Under the pieces are notes generated by a model. That model had not been told where the DNA came from. It was given only the letters and a program-made list of their open reading frames with translations, and made no database searches. A stretch of 39,869 nt of DNA. It comes from a virus. This document shows positions 19,222 through 37,766 of the stretch, piece by piece. Location of the stretch: positions 1 through 39,869 of the IMG/VR virus record IMGVR_UViG_3300021961_000231; one strand, 5' to 3'. The number at the start of each line of letters is the position of its first letter. Positions within the stretch are counted from its first letter, which is position 1. The position numbers were made by a program, and so were the translations under genes.

Positions 19222-19917
19222 TTAAGCATTGTTCGCGGCAGCTTTCAATCGTTCGTACAGATCACGATCAGTGCGGAAGATTCGAGCCTGTTCAGTCAGG
19301 TTGAAATGCTCGCGGTCGAATGGGTTTTTGGTGCCGGGTTGAATCTCGGCGGATGCGGCCTTGGTGCCAACAGGAGCGCCAGAACCTTTGACGGCAGGCG
19401 GCTTAAACAGATAGCCACGCTCAGTCTTGAGCTTTTCAACCCACTGGCTCATGGGCACTTCGTTGTAGCCATCAACGGCCACAGGATTGCCCGATTCGTC
19501 CAGCTTCAGCTGATCACGCACTAGGCGCAAGGTGTCGTGCGGGTTATGCGCGCCTTGCTCAGCCAGGATCGCAATCACGCGGTTGTCCAGCTGATTAACG
19601 GTCAGCTTCGACTCAAGATCGCCAATCCGTTTCTTGTAATCCTCTTCACGCTCAGAGAATTGCTGGGCGTACTGCTTGAGGGCTTCGTCGTATTTGCCCT
19701 TGGATTCGAGCTCCTCCTGTTCCTTGCGGCGCTTGAACTCAACAAGCTCTTTGACATCAACGCCATCGGGGACAACAGGCGCCTTTTCCTTCTGTTCCTT
19801 CAACTTGCCGATCAGCTCGAAGTTTTTGCGTTCAAGGGCTTCAATGCTTTTCTTGAGTGCATCAAGCTCTTGATTATCCGCAGTCGGCGTAGCGTCCTGC
19901 ATTTGTTCGTCGGACAT
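19222..19917 (-). CDS. Scaffolding protein
   Basis: A 231-aa acidic, Lys/Glu/Gln-rich protein. Residues 15-110 form a long coiled coil (LDALKKSIEALERKNFELIG and KQYAQQFSEREEDYKKRIGD), and the C-terminus (FDREHFNLTEQARIFRTDRD) is a compact basic helix region of the kind that binds capsid. It lies immediately before the capsid gene and just after a promoter, so head assembly genes start here. Confidence 0.85.
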   Translation of the reverse strand: MSDEQMQDATPTADNQELDALKKSIEALERKNFELIGKLKEQKEKAPVVPDGVDVKELVEFKRRKEQEELESKGKYDEALKQYAQQFSEREEDYKKRIGDLESKLTVNQLDNRVIAILAEQGAHNPHDTLRLVRDQLKLDESGNPVAVDGYNEVPMSQWVEKLKTERGYLFKPPAVKGSGAPVGTKAASAEIQPGTKNPFDREHFNLTEQARIFRTDRDLYERLKAAANNA

Positions 19918-19942
19918 GAAATACCCGTAGGGTTACAGGTGG

Positions 19943-19970
19943 AGTATATCTCTATTTTCAAGGGCAACAA
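19943..19970 (-). promoter_or_regulatory. Promoter before the scaffold and capsid genes
   Basis: On the minus strand: -35 TTGTTG (19970-19965), 16-bp spacer, -10 TATACT (19948-19943), followed by CCACCTG. The ATG of the scaffold gene is 26 bp after the -10. The box and its downstream CCACCTG are shared with the promoter at 30045-30074. No Shine-Dalgarno sequence is seen in the leader. Confidence 0.65.
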
Positions 19971-24276: not shown

Positions 24277-24609
24277 TTAGTAACTGATGCGAACGGTGGC
24301 GACGCCATCAACAGGGACACCAAGACGTTGGGCAGCAGCGGCGGATAGGTCAATGCTGTTGCAATCGCAGCGGTCAGTAATTGGCACGATCAAGGATCGA
24401 CCCTTGTGCGAGACGCGAACTTTGGTGCCGCATGAAAGCCAAGGGTGAGCGGCAGAGATGCCGGAATAGTGCCGGTAGGCCTGACCGCAATAGGTCGTGC
24501 GGCCATCGAACCATGGGTGATAGACGGTGGCGGTGACCGGACGGCCAGTGTGATGAGCGAAGGCTGGACCGTTAAGCAGCAGTGCTGCAGCGAAGAGAAG
24601 TCGTTTCAT
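24277..24609 (-). CDS. Secreted RlpA-like double-psi beta-barrel protein
   Basis: A 110-aa protein. Residues 1-18 (MKRLLFAAALLLNGPAFA) are a clear signal peptide. The mature part, 19-110, is a compact RlpA/barwin-like barrel: TATVYHPWFDGRTTYCGQ, WLSCGTKVRVSHKGRSLIV, then PITDRCDCNSIDLSAAAAQ. Asp79 (TDR) and Asp87 (IDLS) are at the usual places. RlpA proteins cut glycan strands lacking stem peptides or bind peptidoglycan (family knowledge). Here three Cys may form bridges after export. Its place between terminase and portal is odd for a cell-wall gene. Confidence 0.8.
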   Translation of the reverse strand: MKRLLFAAALLLNGPAFAHHTGRPVTATVYHPWFDGRTTYCGQAYRHYSGISAAHPWLSCGTKVRVSHKGRSLIVPITDRCDCNSIDLSAAAAQRLGVPVDGVATVRISY

Positions 24610-24833: not shown

Positions 24834-24857
24834 AAAAAAGCCCCCGAAGAGGCCGGG
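24834..24857 (-). terminator. Probable rho-independent terminator
   Basis: On the minus strand CCCG and CGGG form a short stem with a seven-base loop, followed by GGC and six T. It stands three bases after the stop of the 90-aa gene. The stem is only 4 bp, so stopping may be partial, letting transcription pass to the RlpA-like and portal genes. Confidence 0.6.
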
Positions 24858-24860
24858 TGA

Positions 24861-25133
24861 TCAGGATTGGATAAGTGCCAGTTCGTATTCCCAGCGGTTG
24901 TCATCAATCTGCTCAAAGGCACTGGGCTCAGCGCGAAGCAGGTTGGTCCAGCCGCGCTTGCAACCATGCTTAACGGCTGCCTTCCACAACTGGCGCAGTT
25001 CTTCAACGGTCATGACTTCCTTTTCAATTTCAGCGCCGAACTGATTGATGGTGATCAGGGTGCCTTCGGAGCCGTTGACGGTAAAAAGGAAGTTGTTTTT
25101 GCCGTTAGTCAGAGAGTGGGTTGCGATGGTCAT
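24861..25133 (-). CDS. Hypothetical protein under a strong promoter
   Basis: A 90-aa protein: MTIATHSLTNGKNNFLFTVN, a GSEGTLITINQFGAEIEKEV strand pair, and a helix near VEELRQLWKAAVKHGCKRGW. It is bracketed by the promoter at 25170-25199 and the terminator at 24834-24857, so it forms its own transcription unit. That layout suggests high or specially timed expression. I do not recognise the family. Confidence 0.65.
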   Translation of the reverse strand: MTIATHSLTNGKNNFLFTVNGSEGTLITINQFGAEIEKEVMTVEELRQLWKAAVKHGCKRGWTNLLRAEPSAFEQIDDNRWEYELALIQS

Positions 25134-25169
25134 GATCTTGCGTGTGGTGGGGTCGCCCCCTGTCCCCTA

Positions 25170-25199
25170 ATTATGGGGTATACCCCCGGCCCCTGTCAA
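25170..25199 (-). promoter_or_regulatory. Strong sigma-70-type promoter
   Basis: On the minus strand a perfect -35 TTGACA (25199-25194), an 18-bp spacer and -10 CATAAT (25175-25170). It drives the 90-aa gene 37 bp away. The spacer contains the palindrome at 25175-25186, so a protein bound there would block RNA polymerase. Confidence 0.75.
25175..25186. promoter_or_regulatory. Palindromic operator candidate in a promoter spacer
   Basis: GGGGTATACCCC is a perfect 12-bp palindrome that fills most of the spacer between TTGACA and CATAAT. Near copies lie at 30065-30076 and, more loosely, at 34141-34152 and 32293-32304, each on a -10 box. No repressor is known here; the small early DNA-binding proteins are candidates. 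Confidence 0.5.
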
Positions 25200-25204
25200 C
25201 AGGC

Positions 25205-25231
25205 AAAAGAAAACCCCCGCCGAAGCGGAGG
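25205..25231 (-). terminator. Strong rho-independent terminator
   Basis: On the minus strand CCTCCGC-TTCG-GCGGGGG: a 7-bp stem with a TTCG tetraloop (25231-25214), then TTTTCTTTT. It lies 220 bp after the large terminase stop and ends the terminase transcript just before the promoter at 25170-25199. Confidence 0.9.
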
Positions 25232-25450
25232 CTCTTCTGCCCTGAAATATCCCTCGGCACGCCCGCTTGAGCATGCGTGTTCCCGACTTCAATTCCTGAT
25301 GACTGATATTGAAATGGACCCCGTTAGACGCAACAAAGGCGAATCGGCCGTGCTCGGGGAGAGCAGTTGTGACGGGGGTCTGGTATCACCCAGCCGTTTT
25401 CCGTCAGATCCAATCAAATGACAGCAAACGACAAGGGCCTGCCGTTGAGG
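25232..25450. other. 219-bp stretch without a supported gene
   Basis: Trailer between the large terminase stop and the terminator at 25205-25231. A 40-codon plus-strand frame (25299-25421) exists but its composition is not convincing. I find no tRNA fold and no promoter box worth naming. Confidence 0.5.
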
Positions 25451-30044: not shown

Positions 30045-30074
30045 TTGCCAGCCCCTTGCGTTTAGGGGTATACT
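30045..30074 (+). promoter_or_regulatory. Promoter inside the early block
   Basis: -35 TTGCCA (30045-30050), 18-bp spacer, -10 TATACT (30069-30074). The -10 sits in TAGGGGTATACTCCACCTG, a text nearly repeated at 32291-32309 and on the minus strand at 19936-19952. It lies right after the nuclease stop and drives the 135-aa gene and those after it. Confidence 0.7.
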
Positions 30075-30097
30075 CCACCTGCAGAGATGCCCCACGC

Positions 30098-30505
30098 ATG
30101 ATCGAACCAATTAGTTCAGAAGAGCTGGAATGGGCCAGGCAGGCCCGCGCACGCCATCCTGAAATCACTTCCTATGGATTTGGCTTGCCCGGCAATGACA
30201 AAGATCACTTTGAAGAATCAGGTGATTCTGGCCTGCAAATGATTGTTGCTTGCCGTCGTTGGCTGACTGGTCAAAAGTTTCGCAAAACTATTAATCCAAT
30301 CGACTGCCCAGGGTCGTATGCAGCCAAGCACATGGTTGAGTCCTGGCCGGGAAACCCCAAAGAGCCAACCAAATACATATACGAAGGCGCCTTGATCCTG
30401 GCAGCAGTAGCCCTTGGTGTGCCGTACAAACAAAAAACAGGCCACTGGGGTATTTATTTGGGTCTCAGCCGCAAAACCATCCCTTCAAACTTTTTCTACG
30501 CATGA
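30098..30505 (+). CDS. Hypothetical protein
   Basis: A 135-aa protein from ATG at 30098. An upstream frame extension would overlap the promoter and is rejected. Visible parts: EPISSEELEWARQARARHPE, TSYGFGLPGNDKDHF, MIVACRRWLTGQKFRKTINP and YIYEGALILAAVALGVPYKQ. The last part looks like a buried helix, but there is no export signal. I do not recognise the family. Confidence 0.6.
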   Translation: MIEPISSEELEWARQARARHPEITSYGFGLPGNDKDHFEESGDSGLQMIVACRRWLTGQKFRKTINPIDCPGSYAAKHMVESWPGNPKEPTKYIYEGALILAAVALGVPYKQKTGHWGIYLGLSRKTIPSNFFYA

Positions 30506-30810
30506 CCAACCCCAGCCTTCTCCTCGGTGCCATCGCCAGCACCAAAGCTGAAATCAAGCGCCACGAAGACGCCCTTCAGGTTCTGATGGACGACCTAGCC
30601 CTGATGTACGCCACGGGCGAAATGGACGACCTCAAAGACGAAGACGGCAATCTTGTCCACGAAGCCGTCAAGGTATCCCGCTGCACCCGCACGAGTTGGC
30701 AGTACAGCAATGCCGTCAAGGAACTTCAGCAGCTCGAACAGTTCGAGGGCGTAGCGAGTAAAAAGGAGACGGAGTATTGGCGGGTGACCCTGCCGAAAGC
30801 AGAGTTCTGA
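30502..30810 (+). CDS. Small helical hypothetical protein
   Basis: A 102-aa protein with ATGA overlap to its upstream neighbour. Residues 8-40 form a coiled coil (LGAIASTKAEIKRHEDALQV), and the rest is acidic then basic (TRTSWQYSNAVKELQQLEQF). Shape and context recall small early phage proteins of unknown role, some of which help recombination proteins. Confidence 0.6.
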   Translation: MTNPSLLLGAIASTKAEIKRHEDALQVLMDDLALMYATGEMDDLKDEDGNLVHEAVKVSRCTRTSWQYSNAVKELQQLEQFEGVASKKETEYWRVTLPKAEF

Positions 30811-31016
30811 TGGCTGACACTCCCATAGATGACCGTATCGAGGCCATCCTCTTCAAATACGACCTATGGGAGCCAGATCAGTACCGCGATGCCGTTGCTG
30901 AACTCACCGTCTATCTACTGACCTTGACCAATGAAGAGCTTGAGGGCAGCTTGTACCACCAACGCCTTAGAGACAAGGTTCACCTTGAAAATTGTTTGAT
31001 GCGATCCGATGGCTAA
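30810..31016 (+). CDS. Small acidic hypothetical protein
   Basis: A 68-aa protein, MADTPIDDRIEAILFKYDLW, then EPDQYRDAVAELTVYLLTLT. Start ATG shares a base with the TGA upstream (TGATG). It is helical and acidic. The text is similar to short cyanophage proteins coded near resolvases, but no function is known to me. Confidence 0.6.
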   Translation: MADTPIDDRIEAILFKYDLWEPDQYRDAVAELTVYLLTLTNEELEGSLYHQRLRDKVHLENCLMRSDG

Positions 31017-31143
31017 CCCCTACAACCTGTCCTGGCAGACACGATTTTTGTTTTGGCTGTTATCAAAGCGTCCAGACGTGGTGGGCATTAATTTGAGCGC
31101 GCCCGTTGACCATTTGAATCGTTGCCTCAGTCACACCAGATGA
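31009..31143 (+). CDS. Small hypothetical protein before rusA
   Basis: A 44-aa protein: MANPYNLSWQTRFLFWLLSK, then RPDVVGINLSAPVDHLNRCL. It overlaps both neighbours (8 and 4 bases), which supports translation. The aromatic N-terminus could touch a membrane or a partner protein. Confidence 0.5.
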   Translation: MANPYNLSWQTRFLFWLLSKRPDVVGINLSAPVDHLNRCLSHTR

Positions 31144-31550
31144 AGTTTGCTGTTCAAGGAGTTGAACCGGCACCGCAAGGCAGCAAACGCCATGTAGGCA
31201 ATGGTCGAATGGTGGAATCATCCAAGAAGGTGAAGCCGTGGCGTTTTGCCGTCAGTCAGGCAGCCTTGGAGACCAGCCATGAAATGTTCGACGGTCCCGT
31301 TTATGTGGGCATCACATTTCTATTTGCCAGGCCGAAGGCGCATTACAACACCAAAGGCATCCTCAAGCCGAATGCACCATTTCACAAAGTCAGCAAGCCG
31401 GATATTGACAAGCTATGCCGCTCAACCCTTGATGGCATCACCGGAATCCTGCTGAAGGATGACTCTCAGGTGGCTTGTTTGATGGCCACAAAGCAATACG
31501 CCAACGAAGGCGAATACATCGGGGCAATCATCACCATCAACCCACTGTGA
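31140..31550 (+). CDS. rusA: Holliday junction resolvase, RusA-like
   Basis: A 136-aa protein from ATG at 31140 (ATGA overlap). The RusA core is clear: EPAPQGSKRHVGNGR near the start, then KPDIDKLCRSTLDGITGILL followed by KDDSQVACL. The three conserved Asp groups (PDID, TLDG, DDSQ) are intact. It cuts four-way junctions made during recombination or at stalled forks, and clears branches before packaging. Confidence 0.92.
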   Translation: MKFAVQGVEPAPQGSKRHVGNGRMVESSKKVKPWRFAVSQAALETSHEMFDGPVYVGITFLFARPKAHYNTKGILKPNAPFHKVSKPDIDKLCRSTLDGITGILLKDDSQVACLMATKQYANEGEYIGAIITINPL

Positions 31551-32287
31551 AAGGTTCAAAGCATCTCCGCGAGTGCGCTGTTTGCAAGTCCATTTTCAAG
31601 ATCCCCATTCTCAAGGGCAATCACAAAAGCAACCGCCAAACCTGCAGCCCTCTGTGTCATCGGCGGCTTGTAGGTCAGCGATCAACACCTTGGACAAAGG
31701 GTGAAATCGACATCATCGAACAGCTCAGCACGTCCATGCCGCCAAAGCGGTTGTATCTGACGTATTGCCGAATGGCTGCTGACCGTGGCTTCCCAAAACG
31801 TACAGAACCCGCATTCCGCTGCAAGCTGAGGTTGCTGGGCATCCCGTTGATGCCGGAGCTGGATTGGTACAGGCTGCAGCAACTGGCGGATATGTTCGGT
31901 AGTACGCGGCATTCAGTGGCAAAGCTGCTGAAGAAAGGCTTGAGGGCGGAGAAGGAGTCGCAGCATGGGAATCAGCCGTGGTTTGTTAGCCGTGCAGAGC
32001 TGCGCCGTTTTGCACGTAAGCATCCTGGGTTGCTGCGTGAATTTGACGCCGATGGTCTTTTCATTGCACTTGAGGACCGCAGCCTTGTTGAGCTGATCCT
32101 TGCCCAACCACTTGTGCGTCAGCCAAGCCGATACAACCCCACGCCAGTGAAATGCGTTGAGACAGGGAACGTGTACCCGAGTTACCGCGCTGCGGCTAGG
32201 GCCGTTTTTGTTGATGGTTCCGCTGTTCATGCTGCGGCACTGAGGGGGCATCGTGCTGGTGGTTACCACTGGGTTGCGCTGAAATAA
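31547..32287 (+). CDS. Multi-domain DNA-binding protein (zinc finger, HTH, NUMOD1-like)
   Basis: A 246-aa protein from GTG at 31547, which overlaps the rusA stop (GTGA). The first 40 residues hold a zinc finger (CAVC and CSPLC pairs). Residues 45-100 look like a Myb/SANT-like helix bundle (WTKGEIDIIEQLSTSMPPKR). Residues 105-165 are an excisionase/MerR-like HTH (LQQLADMFGSTRHSVAKLLK, then WFVSRAELRRFARKH). The last 45 (VKCVETGNVYPSYRAAARAV, then GYHWVAL) match NUMOD1, a DNA-binding module usually fused to homing nucleases. No nuclease domain is present, so a regulator is likely. The promoter at 32274-32302 overlaps its end. Confidence 0.65.
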   Translation: MKGSKHLRECAVCKSIFKIPILKGNHKSNRQTCSPLCHRRLVGQRSTPWTKGEIDIIEQLSTSMPPKRLYLTYCRMAADRGFPKRTEPAFRCKLRLLGIPLMPELDWYRLQQLADMFGSTRHSVAKLLKKGLRAEKESQHGNQPWFVSRAELRRFARKHPGLLREFDADGLFIALEDRSLVELILAQPLVRQPSRYNPTPVKCVETGNVYPSYRAAARAVFVDGSAVHAAALRGHRAGGYHWVALK

Positions 32288-32302
32288 ATTTAGGGATATA
32301 CT
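32274..32302 (+). promoter_or_regulatory. Promoter before the annealing protein gene
   Basis: -35 TTGCGC (32274-32279), 17-bp spacer, -10 TATACT (32297-32302), within TAGGGATATACTCCAGGTG. It overlaps the end of the upstream gene. The leader to the ATG at 32353 is about 45 bases, rich in C and A, with no Shine-Dalgarno box. Confidence 0.7.
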
Positions 32303-32352
32303 CCAGGTGGGTCCTAAGCCCGTCCTCACTCTCCGATCCACCGCACACACTT

Positions 32353-33051
32353 ATGGCCGATTTCCCCAATCTCGGGGCTGTCATCACTAAGGCCGACGTT
32401 GACACCAAAGGCACAGGCTCTTACGCAGCCGAGTATGTGAATTGGTGCCGTGTAGCTCACCTGCTACATGAAAATGCGCCTAACTGGCAGTTCCATCTAG
32501 TCCGCACCGCCGAAGACAGCCACGTCTGGCAATCGCCTAATGGCACCGCCTACGTCGTCGGTTGCTTCAGTGGTCCCGATGGCCTCCGTACGCCTGACTT
32601 CCCTCAGGCAATCATGGACAATCGAAACAATGCGATCGCATTTGAAAAGGTCACTGCTCGTGATCTCACGGATGCTCACCGACGTTGCCTATGCACTGCC
32701 GCAGCCGCGCAATTCGGATTGGCATGGCAACTATGGGCACGAGAGCCCGTCGAAGATCCGCACCGTGAAGAGGCACCTAAGCCAGCTCTTCAACAAGACA
32801 CGCCAAAGCCTGCGGAGCCAGCTAAGTCAGCGGCTAAGTCCACCACCAAGAAAGCCGCCGGAGTGGTTTTTCTGAAGGATGAAGATCTTGAGGAAGTCAA
32901 GGCTGCCGTCAAGGCTTACGAAAAGCGCGAGGAGTTGATTACTGCCTTCAAAAAGCAGTTCAACATCATGGCGCCACGTATCGCTGACCGTATCCAGTTC
33001 CCTGAGCACAAGGAGTTCATTGATCAATACATTGCCGCGAATCCTGCATGA
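32353..33051 (+). CDS. Single-strand annealing protein, Sak3/DUF1071-like
   Basis: A 232-aa protein. The N-terminal core (residues 20-130) has SYAAEYVNWCRVAHLLHENA, then AYVVGCFSGPDG and FEKVTARDLTDAHRRCLCTA with AAAQFGLAWQLWA. This fits DUF1071/Sak3, phage annealing proteins related to RecT/Erf in role. A Lys/Ala/Pro linker (130-170) leads to a helical end (DLEEVKAAVKAYEKREELIT). It likely pairs single strands made by the nuclease at 29403-30041. Its own promoter suggests stronger expression than its neighbours. Confidence 0.75.
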   Translation: MADFPNLGAVITKADVDTKGTGSYAAEYVNWCRVAHLLHENAPNWQFHLVRTAEDSHVWQSPNGTAYVVGCFSGPDGLRTPDFPQAIMDNRNNAIAFEKVTARDLTDAHRRCLCTAAAAQFGLAWQLWAREPVEDPHREEAPKPALQQDTPKPAEPAKSAAKSTTKKAAGVVFLKDEDLEEVKAAVKAYEKREELITAFKKQFNIMAPRIADRIQFPEHKEFIDQYIAANPA

Positions 33052-33230
33052 CCGCACGACGCCCTAAATCTCCAACTGAAATCAACCGGAAGAAAAACCG
33101 CTTCGTTGTTGCGGCCAAGCTTTCGGCTGATATTCACAAAGAGCTAAGGGCATACTGCGCCAAAACGGGGCAAAACATCAACCAAGCCCTGCGGCACATC
33201 ATCACCACCTTCCTGTCAACTCATGGCTGA
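33048..33230 (+). CDS. Ribbon-helix-helix DNA-binding protein
   Basis: A 60-aa protein: a basic lead (MTARRPKSPTEINRKKNR), strand FVVAAKLSADIHKELRAYC, then AKTGQNINQALRHIITTFL. This is the Arc/MetJ-like strand-helix-helix plan. As a small repressor type it is a candidate to bind the palindromic promoter elements. ATGA overlap with the annealing protein gene. Confidence 0.7.
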   Translation: MTARRPKSPTEINRKKNRFVVAAKLSADIHKELRAYCAKTGQNINQALRHIITTFLSTHG

Positions 33231-33519
33231 TTTTGCTTTCACCGCGAAATTCCGAATCATGGAAAATCGCAACCGCAAAAACGACAAGGCGCCCGAGGAA
33301 AACCTCGTGGTGGACTTCACCGCAACAGAAGCCGTCAAGGCTGCGAATTACCTGATGACCATGGCCGAACAGGCCGAGGCAAACGGCACCAAGATTCGCA
33401 TCTATACCGGCAAGGATCAGTTCACTGAAGAAACCGGTTTTTCTCTTTGGGGCGGTAAGTGGGGCAATAAAGGCTCCTTCAGCCCGCTCAAGCCCGAGTC
33501 CTCTGAAGCTTCCTTCTGA
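33223..33519 (+). CDS. Hypothetical protein of the recombination region
   Basis: A 98-aa protein starting MADFAFTAKFRIMENRNRKN, with DFTATEAVKAANYLMTMAEQ and a glycine/aromatic end (GGKWGNKGSFSPLKPE). The strand-helix-strand form and place after the annealing protein suggest a partner of single-stranded DNA metabolism. I do not know the family. Confidence 0.6.
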   Translation: MADFAFTAKFRIMENRNRKNDKAPEENLVVDFTATEAVKAANYLMTMAEQAEANGTKIRIYTGKDQFTEETGFSLWGGKWGNKGSFSPLKPESSEASF

Positions 33520-33854
33520 TGTCAACCATGATCATCCTCACCGATTCTCAAGTTGTTGAGCTGAACAACCGCATCGGGCAAATCCAACGCCTGATCGAAA
33601 ATGCTCAGATCATCAAGGCCGGTGGCACGCCCCAGCCCGCTGCTGTCACTGAAACAAAGCCCAAGGTGACTGTTCGGCGTCGCGCTCGCCGTAATTTGCT
33701 GAACGAAACCAAGGTTGTTGAAATCAAGCAACGCCTAGCCAGCAAAGAGTCGGCAACCAAGATTGCCAAATCCTTTGGCGTTCACGTCAGCACGATCAAC
33801 AACATCAAGTACGGGAAGAACTGGGCGCACATCAAAGTGCCTGTCAGTTCCTGA
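33519..33854 (+). CDS. HTH protein with coiled-coil N-terminus
   Basis: A 111-aa protein. Residues 8-35 form a coil (VVELNNRIGQIQRLIENAQI), a Pro/Lys/Arg linker follows, and residues 61-105 are a helix-turn-helix (NETKVVEIKQRLASKESATK, then IAKSFGVHVSTINNIKYGKN and W). The HTH is closely like that at 34955-35296, and like the module often found on HNH homing enzymes. Probably a small regulator or dimeric DNA-binding protein. Confidence 0.65.
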   Translation: MSTMIILTDSQVVELNNRIGQIQRLIENAQIIKAGGTPQPAAVTETKPKVTVRRRARRNLLNETKVVEIKQRLASKESATKIAKSFGVHVSTINNIKYGKNWAHIKVPVSS

Positions 33855-34095
33855 TTTCGCGCTGAGATTCCATCAGCTGCAGCTCAAGTGCTGCAATTCT
33901 GTTGGTGGCTTGCTGTAGGAGGTCCTGCTGCATAGACCAAGCGCGGTACAACTGAGCAGCGATGGGGCCTGCGTTTGGGGTGTTCTCCAGGCGTCGGGCC
34001 TCTTTTTCAACGCTGAACGCAGTCGTTGCATCGCGCTTCATCTGTAGCCATTCCCAAGCAGCGTCGTCCATGATTTTGGCGTGTACCACATTCAC
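33844..34095 (-). CDS. Antisense-oriented small gene in the early block
   Basis: An 83-aa frame from GTG at 34095, or 75 aa from the ATG at 34071. The residues (DDAAWEWLQMKRDATTAFSV, then GPIAAQLYRAWSMQQDLLQQ and ATNRIAALELQLMESQREIR) look coding, with a coiled-coil end. It converges on the HTH gene, overlapping it by 11 bp. No plus-strand gene fills this gap. It would need its own promoter. Confidence 0.5.
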   Translation of the reverse strand: MNVVHAKIMDDAAWEWLQMKRDATTAFSVEKEARRLENTPNAGPIAAQLYRAWSMQQDLLQQATNRIAALELQLMESQREIRN

Positions 34096-34121
34096 GGTAG
34101 GTAGAGCGTCAAGATCAAGAA

Positions 34122-34150
34122 TTACAACTTGCCGAAATAAGGGGTTTACT
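34122..34150 (+). promoter_or_regulatory. Promoter before the small-gene cluster
   Basis: -35 TTACAA (34122-34127), 17-bp spacer, -10 TTTACT (34145-34150) in AAGGGGTTTACTCC. It resembles the TATACTCC promoters at 30069 and 32297 with one base changed in the -10. The next gene starts at 34220. Confidence 0.55.
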
Positions 34151-34219
34151 CCTTGGGAATGCTGGCTACTATTCGCCCAACCGGAGCGATCCGGTCATCG
34201 CTACACACCACACAGACCC

Positions 34220-34775: not shown

Positions 34776-34955
34776 ATGAACGAACTTCGTCGCTTTTACT
34801 TCACCATCCCTTCATCCGGTGCTTACGACTGGGTTGTAGCCGCCAGCTTTGAAGACGCCAAAATTGCGGCCTTTGAAGAATGGGCACCGCTCTACAACGA
34901 AATTAAATGGCTCACGCCTACTGACCACTCCGAAGTCAAACTTCCCGCGATCTAG
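34776..34955 (+). CDS. Small hypothetical protein
   Basis: A 59-aa protein: MNELRRFYFTIPSSGAYDWV, VAASFEDAKIAAFEEWAPLY and a short end. The strand-helix-strand pattern with FEDAKIAAF is natural. Its TAG overlaps the GTG of the next gene (TAGTG). Family unknown. Confidence 0.6.
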   Translation: MNELRRFYFTIPSSGAYDWVVAASFEDAKIAAFEEWAPLYNEIKWLTPTDHSEVKLPAI

Positions 34956-35296
34956 TGGCCGCCTCTAAAAAAGTTCTCACCGAGAACAATGTGGTCGAAA
35001 TTCTTCAGTCCACAGAAAACAACACGCAACTAGCCGCACGCTTTGGCGTCACTCGCCAGGCCATCTCACAGATCCGCAATGGCATCAACTGGACAAACGT
35101 CGCCCCGGAACTACCTCGCATCCCCGTTCGCGTCAAAGAATCAGTCCGTAAGGACTACCTACAGCGCAGGCCAAATTGCCACAAATGTCATGAATGGAAT
35201 GGCCATGAATGTTCCTACGGTTTCCCCGAGGCCATAGATGAACCATTTTTTGCCATTGGATGCGACCTCTATCGAAGAAATCCGGGCAGTGCTTGA
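34955..35296 (+). CDS. HTH protein fused to a four-cysteine module
   Basis: A 113-aa protein from GTG at 34955. Residues 7-47 are a helix-turn-helix (LTENNVVEILQSTENNTQLA, then ARFGVTRQAISQIRNGINW) homologous in look to 33519-33854. Residues 75-106 are a Cys module: C75-x2-C78, C86 followed by SYGFPEA, and C103 before DLY. The module returns in the 128-aa protein at 36104-36490. Zinc or iron-sulfur binding is inferred from the four Cys. Confidence 0.65.
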   Translation: MAASKKVLTENNVVEILQSTENNTQLAARFGVTRQAISQIRNGINWTNVAPELPRIPVRVKESVRKDYLQRRPNCHKCHEWNGHECSYGFPEAIDEPFFAIGCDLYRRNPGSA

Positions 35297-37214: not shown

Positions 37215-37766
37215 CTAAGCCGTCGCCGTCACAGCCGTCTTAAGAGTTTCCCAAGAAGGCATTACGGTTTCATGTCGGTTGTAGTGACCGATTTGTGCAT
37301 AGGAGCGATTGGGCTTAGCAGTTAAGGGCATAAACAAAACTTGGCCAATTAACATCCCAGGCCAGATACCTACCTTGTGCTTTTGCCGCACATTTTTTAA
37401 CTCAAGCGTCAACCTGCTGCCGTGGTATCCCGGATCAATGAATCCCGCCAACATGTGTTGAATGCCGCTTCTGGCGCGGCTTGACTTCAATACAAACTGA
37501 CCAGAGATCGCCGGATCATCCGGCATGTTGAACATCTCTTCAGTTTCCGCAAGGATGAACGTTCCAGGCTCAAGCCAATACGGATCAGCCTCTGTATGGC
37601 CGCCAATGTTGTGCCTGATTAGTTCCGTGGTCTCGGCTACCTCAATCATGATGTGAACCCCTAGCGCCACGTCGTAGGACGAAGGTTGAAGCTGTTCTTC
37701 GTTGAAGGGGCTAATCAGAGCGTGCTCAAGGCAAAGCGCACGAATCTCGTGGTCAGGCAGCAGCAT
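37215..37766 (-). CDS. dcd: dCTP deaminase (dCTP to dUTP, or bifunctional to dUMP)
   Basis: A 183-aa trimeric-type enzyme. Conserved parts: PSSYDVALG near 28-36, the phosphate-binding SSRARSG at 95-101, HMLAGFIDPGYHGSRLTLEL at 104-123 with D111 and catalytic E122, and GQVLF at 141-145. It deaminates dCTP for thymidylate supply, and some members also remove pyrophosphate. It is the last gene of the late lysis block, right before the terminator, where a nucleotide gene is not expected. No phage thymidylate synthase is present. Confidence 0.9.
   Translation of the reverse strand: MLLPDHEIRALCLEHALISPFNEEQLQPSSYDVALGVHIMIEVAETTELIRHNIGGHTEADPYWLEPGTFILAETEEMFNMPDDPAISGQFVLKSSRARSGIQHMLAGFIDPGYHGSRLTLELKNVRQKHKVGIWPGMLIGQVLFMPLTAKPNRSYAQIGHYNRHETVMPSWETLKTAVTATA

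Follow-up and report, generated by a model that had tools for sequence, protein, structure and literature searches.

A dyad-symmetric element repeated at phage promoters: a predicted repressor operator with linked leader hairpins in an uncultured relative of cyanosiphoviruses

What kind of regulatory element is repeated, in nearly the same letters, at several promoters of the uncultured virus IMGVR_UViG_3300021961_000231, and what might read it? The record (39,869 bases from IMG/VR, analyzed at its full length and hereafter called the window) has a 73-base-pair (bp) direct terminal repeat and encodes a capsid protein that shares 60-70% identity with its counterparts in the cyanosiphoviruses KBS-S-2A, S-H1, MED4-184 and MED4-117; on sequence grounds it is an uncultured relative of these phages. 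The answer bears on gene timing, which is poorly known in most cyanophages lacking a polymerase of their own. A first-pass annotation of the window had described four promoters with near-identical text, conserved beyond the -10 box, and had hinted at a shared regulator or a modified RNA polymerase. All four strings, here called S1 to S4, are indeed present; the positions given for S2 (32291-32309), S3 (34139-34152) and S4 (19951-19936, minus strand) are exact, whereas S1 had been placed one base too high, its string TAGGGGTATACTCCACCTG occupying 30063-30081.

The same annotation had proposed a motif scan of the genome as a check. Scanning both strands of the window with AGGGRTATACTCCA, allowing up to two mismatches, we recovered exactly five matches, namely S1 to S4 and a fifth, S5, at 25187-25174 on the minus strand, against a shuffled expectation of 0.14 +/- 0.35, with none of 100 shuffles reaching five; as the pattern was derived from the sites themselves this count alone is circular, and it is the relatives that provide independent tests. 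The five elements and their predicted promoter hexamers are:

30065..30076, plus strand: S1 box GGGGTATACTCC; -10 TATACT at 30069-30074, -35 TTGCCA at 30045-30050, 18-bp spacer; orthologous sites in relatives
32293..32304, plus strand: S2 box GGGATATACTCC; -10 TATACT at 32297-32302, -35 TTGCGC at 32274-32279, 17-bp spacer
34141..34152, plus strand: S3 box GGGGTTTACTCC; lies on the -10 TTTACT (-35 TTACAA) or, alternatively, at the -35 of another promoter
19941..19952, minus strand: S4 box GAGATATACTCC; -10 TATACT; upstream of the scaffold gene
25175..25186, minus strand: S5 perfect palindrome GGGGTATACCCC; in the spacer of TTGACA (25199-25194), 18 bp, CATAAT (25175-25170)

In the second reading of S3, TTTACT serves as the -35 with a -10-like TACTAT downstream, and the transcript would then start directly before a hairpin (34141-34195, plus strand). 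S3 (TTTACT) and S4 (AGAGATATACTCC) are the weaker members of the family.

To compare these sites across relatives we fetched 80 loci with the Sak-like gene that follows S2 and 80 with the scaffold gene that follows S4; these are metagenomic contigs, many of them fragmentary, and are related by descent. The pattern GGGNTATACYCC is present in 15 of 18 related virus records, and a reversed control pattern gave zero matches. Ahead of the Sak-like gene the box is retained in 25 distinct sequences while its flanks change, in a comparison of intergenic regions of the kind proposed earlier: GGnTATACTC is invariant, the final C stands at 96% and the neighboring columns are mostly at 40-80%, with the qualification that these sequences were located via TATACTC, such that the constancy of these seven letters owes something to the selection and the GG and the last C constitute the free evidence. 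Nor is the motif as frequent inside genes as between them, which had been named as an outcome that would count against a promoter family: none of 79 distinct-context sites in relatives falls inside homologous coding regions, though these account for 65% of the bases (coding regions being defined here by homology to window proteins, and the relatives' own cargo genes, described below, not being counted as coding). The distribution of the family has limits. Upstream of the scaffold gene, the S4 form AGAGATATACTCC occurs in the window's subclade alone, an unrelated promoter taking its place in most relatives; the S5 region is without a match among 50,697 phage records; and a search of the isolates KBS-S-2A, S-H1, MED4-184 and MED4-117 found the box motif in none of the four. 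KBS-S-2A, which lacks the boxes, carries a gene annotated as an RNA polymerase sigma factor (L162, 7779-8708), and the two observations together suggest that these relatives timed their genes by different solutions.

The position of the element points beyond a plain promoter sequence. The GGGGTATAC-CC element lies on the -10 at S1, S2 and S4, and in the spacer between -35 and -10 at S5. The S5 unit is near-identical in dozens of relatives, in which the gene behind it and the sequence ahead of it differ; the palindrome hardly varies among 45 distinct versions of the unit, 44 of which match TTGACA at five or six of six positions with the 18-bp spacing. Among the TATACT-type modules 44 of 57 have a -35 matching at five or six of six positions, and the S2 sites match at three to five. 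Both arrangements have -35 and -10 hexamers 16-18 bp apart, as is typical of sigma70-type promoters. In the distant relatives L047, L070 and L049, whose Sak proteins are 53-55% identical to that of the window, GGGTATACCC occurs at promoters 4-6 bp upstream of the apparent -10; it is found twice per contig, at promoters, in L047 and L070, with one copy upstream of genes for RusA, Sak and a ribbon-helix-helix (RHH) protein, and a near-copy is present in L058. Inverted symmetry thus recurs at several promoters with a variable offset from the -10, and since the symmetry is kept while the offset is not, the boxes are best read as a predicted dyad operator laid over ordinary sigma70-type promoters. 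Where the box coincides with the -10 (S1, S2 and S4), the final T of TATACT breaks one pair of the dyad, yielding GGGRTATACTCC. Against this stands the poor match of S3 and S4 to the dyad.

A simpler account would have the boxes be just strong sigma70 promoters with an extended -10 (GGGG-TATACT-CC) favored by the host RNA polymerase, needing no dedicated regulator. The TATACT hexamers, the 17-18-bp spacers, the good -35 hexamers of most modules and the placement of the element on the -10 at S1, S2 and S4 all fit this account; however, the perfect palindrome sits off the -10 at S5 and in the distant relatives, and an extended -10 would not be expected to stay conserved within a spacer, which leaves it doubtful. 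The suggestion of a modified RNA polymerase, or equally of a phage sigma factor, did not survive: no phage RNA polymerase or sigma factor was found among the window open reading frames scanned, the promoters have -35 boxes of the host type, and the distance between element and -10 varies. What finds support in the initial interpretation is a promoter family with a shared regulator and a conserved element that extends beyond the -10 and is more than a sigma-factor site; its description as a long -10 was incomplete, given that the S5 palindrome sits in the spacer, and S5 with its palindrome, the leader hairpins and the exchangeable cargo had been overlooked.

If the element is an operator, a candidate for the protein that binds it is encoded in one of the operons bearing it. 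The relevant genes are:

32353..33051, plus strand: Sak-like single-strand annealing protein gene, under S2; PHROG 21418 and 659
33048..33230, plus strand: 60-residue RHH (Arc/CopG/SvtR-like) protein, candidate regulator of the boxes, identified by profile matches
19222..19917, minus strand: head scaffolding protein gene, under S4; PHROG 206, 2.6e-30

The start of the RHH gene overlaps the 3' end of the Sak-like gene, which places it downstream of S2. In profile comparisons its product is homologous to a member of known structure, SvtR of SIRV1 (PDB: 2kel; E=2.1e-6 over residues 7-58), with weaker matches to Pfam Omega_Repress (3e-5, below the cut-off) and to a PHROG Arc-like repressor (0.004). 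SvtR is itself an RHH repressor that acts on its own promoter and on others of the virus, including that of a structural gene (PMC5569661). An RHH gene directly follows Sak in the motif-bearing loci L002-L030 wherever the contig covers that region, and a diverged one follows Sak in distant loci, including L047 and L070. The 60-residue RHH protein is thus the best available candidate for the putative regulator of the boxes. Several observations weigh against this assignment. Distant relatives in which no palindrome was seen also have the RHH gene; the residues predicted to face DNA from the strand are V, A and K in the window protein as opposed to H, Q and R in that of L047, despite the same palindrome core; the AlphaFold monomer has the two C-terminal helices but draws the N-terminal strand as a low-confidence helix (predicted local distance difference test, pLDDT, about 55-69 there); and the Foldseek matches, while mostly to RHH proteins, all have E above 1.

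A further point on that side is the presence in the near clade of two other conserved proteins, encoded on the plus strand at 33519-33854 and 34955-35296, with weak helix-turn-helix (HTH) matches. One of these, in place of the RHH protein, might bind the operator: they occur in 27 and 26 of 29 near-clade loci. Nevertheless, the distant loci give only weak matches to them and none in the palindrome-bearing L047 and L070 (fragmentary contigs, in which an absence is weak evidence), whereas the diverged RHH gene does follow Sak in both; we consider an HTH regulator unlikely. The PHROG matches of the two proteins are HNH endonuclease families, of which the DNA-binding part is seemingly all that remains. 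The circumstantial nature of the linkage between RHH gene and box also gives room to a different thought, that a host regulator uses the palindrome as its operator and the phage exploits this to time or tune its genes. Yet the 17-mer GGGGTATACCCCATAAT (the S5 form with flank and not the bare palindrome) matched no cyanobacterial contig among 84,980 species genomes, its 12 matches being in unrelated bacteria at about chance level, and a host regulator appears quite unlikely. Taken together, we think it probable that the boxes are a dyad operator over sigma70 promoters read by the host and bound by a small phage repressor, most likely of the RHH class.

The second conserved feature of these promoters lies downstream of the -10, where the predicted transcripts would begin with hairpins:

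30081..30090, plus strand: S1 5' leader hairpin GCA(GAGA)TGC, about 7 nucleotides past the -10; a 3-bp stem in the window, extended in many relatives
32309..32321, plus strand: S2 5' leader hairpin GGGT-CCTAA-GCCC; no GNRA loop
34180..34195, plus strand: S3 leader hairpin ACCGGA(GCGA)TCCGGT, further downstream of its box
19923..19933, minus strand: S4 leader hairpin ACCC-TAC-GGGT, before the scaffold gene, in relatives too, including those with another promoter
25149..25160, minus strand: S5 5' leader hairpin GGGG(GCGA)CCCC, about 4 nucleotides past the predicted transcript start

Promoters of the S1 and S5 types are followed, about 6-15 nucleotides after the end of the -10, by a short inverted repeat around a sense-strand GCGA or GAGA, with stems that include GGGG/CCCC, GGGA/TCCC, GGCA/TGCC, GCA/TGC and GGTG/CGCT. 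If transcription starts about 7 nucleotides after the -10, most hairpins would fall within 0-5 nucleotides of the 5' end. In an alignment of 27 distinct leaders 93.3% of the cells are paired (72.7 when shuffled), a figure partly built in by choosing leaders that have a hairpin, which does not apply to the occurrence of several compensated stem versions at one place. Thirty cells are changed on both sides as against 13.4 in shuffles, and the covariation, uncorrected for phylogeny, is 0.467 as against 0.178; none of 500 shuffles reaches any of the three values, and sliding the partner by 1-3 columns reduces pairing to 34-51%. Single-sequence folding is a poor test here, with leader z-scores of only -0.9 to -1.6, and the case for the hairpins consequently rests on covariation. 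Folding also furnishes two counterpoints: the 3-bp hairpin of the S1 leader folded alone is not the minimum-energy structure, an alternative being favored, and not all S2-type hairpins are predicted as the best fold. At the S2 position many relatives, though not all, have hairpins of other sequence, and the S2 and S4 hairpins have loops other than GCGA/GAGA. The Rfam search recovered no family at gathering score in the window, and its two sub-threshold matches lie away from these leaders. Separately, the scaffold leader ACCCTACGGGT (window 19933-19923, minus strand; L082-L161) is kept across relatives, even under a quite different promoter.

Covariation of a dyad would look alike in DNA, and the hairpins could in principle be DNA elements, either a second dyad operator or an extruded promoter hairpin. 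Phage N4, whose virion RNA polymerase reads hairpin promoters, offers a precedent. However, the arms vary freely (GGGG, GGGA, GGCA, GCA, GGTG) around a loop that is always GCGA or GAGA, and on the sense strand only, which is what a GNRA loop in RNA would lead one to expect; moreover, the hairpin follows the -10, and the scan of open reading frames turned up no N4-type polymerase. We regard a DNA role as very unlikely and take the hairpins as probable RNA leader elements. By analogy with known 5'-terminal stem-loops, they probably protect the 5' end of the mRNA.

The boxes precede core genes as well as small accessory genes of unrelated kinds, the two accessory loci being S1 and S5. The features at these two loci are:

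30098..30505, plus strand: S1 cargo open reading frame, 135 residues; no family match
24861..25133, minus strand: S5 cargo open reading frame, 90 residues; no PHROG match; unrelated proteins substitute in relatives
25210..25235, minus strand: terminator-like hairpin and T run, directly upstream of the S5 promoter
24839..24857, minus strand: terminator-like hairpin and T run, directly after the S5 cargo stop codon

In several relatives the next gene (window 30502-30810) begins at the S1 promoter instead of the S1 cargo open reading frame. Collecting the genes behind such modules gave 87 proteins with distinct starts, which fall into 27 clusters without detectable mutual similarity (representatives of 47-135 residues); a given cluster may follow hairpins of several types, and a given hairpin type may precede many clusters. 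Searches with 10 of these proteins in Pfam produced one weak match and none that was confident, and with 9 in PHROGs one family of unknown function. The interval between the terminase large subunit (TerL) and portal genes, which houses S5, has at least one box in 24 of 24 contigs examined and two boxes in three of them, figures that are a description and not a frequency, as the contigs were mostly picked for a box already seen. The S5 unit has its own predicted promoter and terminator and a cargo that differs between relatives. By its layout it is a moron structure with a shared, standard expression part, an assignment made for the S5 unit of the window alone. It resembles known morons in its order of terminator, promoter, small foreign-looking open reading frame and terminator, and in its varying cargo. 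It differs from them in that the expression part is standardized, common to several loci and equipped with a putative operator and hairpin.

These observations can be arranged into a regulatory scheme. One dyad-symmetric operator, with GGGGTATACCCC as its ideal form, would have been copied over ordinary sigma70-type promoters that the host RNA polymerase reads. These promoters would fire immediately on infection and later be turned down together, once a small DNA-binding protein of the phage, for which the 60-residue RHH protein is the likeliest candidate, binds the operator and represses, with feedback on the operon of the regulator itself. The early or late timing of the box-bearing genes is something we infer from gene content. 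At the two accessory loci, S1 and S5, the mRNA would open, give or take a few bases, with a GNRA-loop hairpin that probably shields its 5' end from decay, and continue into an interchangeable small cargo gene. More tentatively, and with odds somewhat below even, this cyanophage clade may use a standard exchangeable cassette of promoter, RHH-repressor operator and GNRA hairpin before dozens of unrelated genes, many of them for counter-defense or host takeover, and the cassette could then function as a discovery tag.

The closest published parallel to such a cassette is the conserved regulatory sequence ahead of early anti-defense genes in archaeal viruses (PMC11065993), the anti-defense role being putative in the present case. 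There, too, as in rudivirus early genes and acr-aca, one conserved strong promoter precedes many small, single, unrelated genes, and a small virus DNA-binding protein is proposed to shut them off later (PMC11065993). The rudivirus promoter is of the TATA/B recognition element (BRE) type, whereas that of the window clade is of the sigma70 type, with the dyad inside the promoter, an RHH candidate and a 5' GNRA hairpin. SvtR and the Arc/CopG repressors resemble the candidate regulator as RHH proteins of about 60 residues, virus-encoded in the case of SvtR (PDB: 2kel); SvtR, however, belongs to an archaeal virus and has another target sequence, while the protein considered here is from a bacterial virus and its binding is predicted. 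The start-associated sequences (SAS) and extended SAS (ESAS) of cluster K mycobacteriophages (PMC3203893) are likewise repeated short elements near the starts of a subset of genes, some with an upstream inverted repeat. But the SAS, GGGATAGGAGCCC, is a 13-mer without symmetry that marks translation starts and comes with 17-bp inverted repeats, as opposed to a repeat in the promoter with a covarying hairpin downstream; the leader hairpins of the window clade differ from the SAS in sequence and position. The 5'-terminal stem-loops that stabilize bacterial mRNAs such as ompA and papA (works cited in PMC3997798) share with our leaders a hairpin within a few bases of the start, predicted in our case; the present hairpins, putative stabilizers, differ in their conserved GCGA/GAGA loop, their covarying stems and their occurrence before unrelated genes. 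Our survey of the literature on the motif, on leader hairpins at phage promoters and on morons with leaders found nothing closer than these systems.

Should the scheme hold, it would supply a candidate operator-repressor pair, a leader RNA element that is conserved, covaries clearly and matches no Rfam family, and a search tag that has already retrieved 27 unrelated, almost unannotated families of small cargo. Conserved regulatory sequences used as a search handle have uncovered anti-defense genes in archaeal viruses (PMC11065993). A tie between the 5' hairpins and RNase E, speculative as it is here, would be of interest, given that infection by one cyanophage increases the RNase E of its host (PMC9692554).

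A wide scan of viral contigs for the module also returned matches in L235, L238, L241, L245 and L256 that are unlike it and were set aside; the one in L256, read further, sits within an unrelated helicase-like gene. Two more small RHH-looking proteins, recognized by eye, are encoded near a helicase gene in L047 (1310-1618 and 3465-3632, both minus strand). Between the terminase and portal genes the window also encodes (24277-24609, minus strand) a 110-residue protein with a leader-like N-terminus and the look of an RlpA-type double-psi barrel (PHROG 7930, lipoprotein precursor). Finally, a dCTP deaminase-like gene (37215-37766, minus strand) adjoins the endolysin gene.

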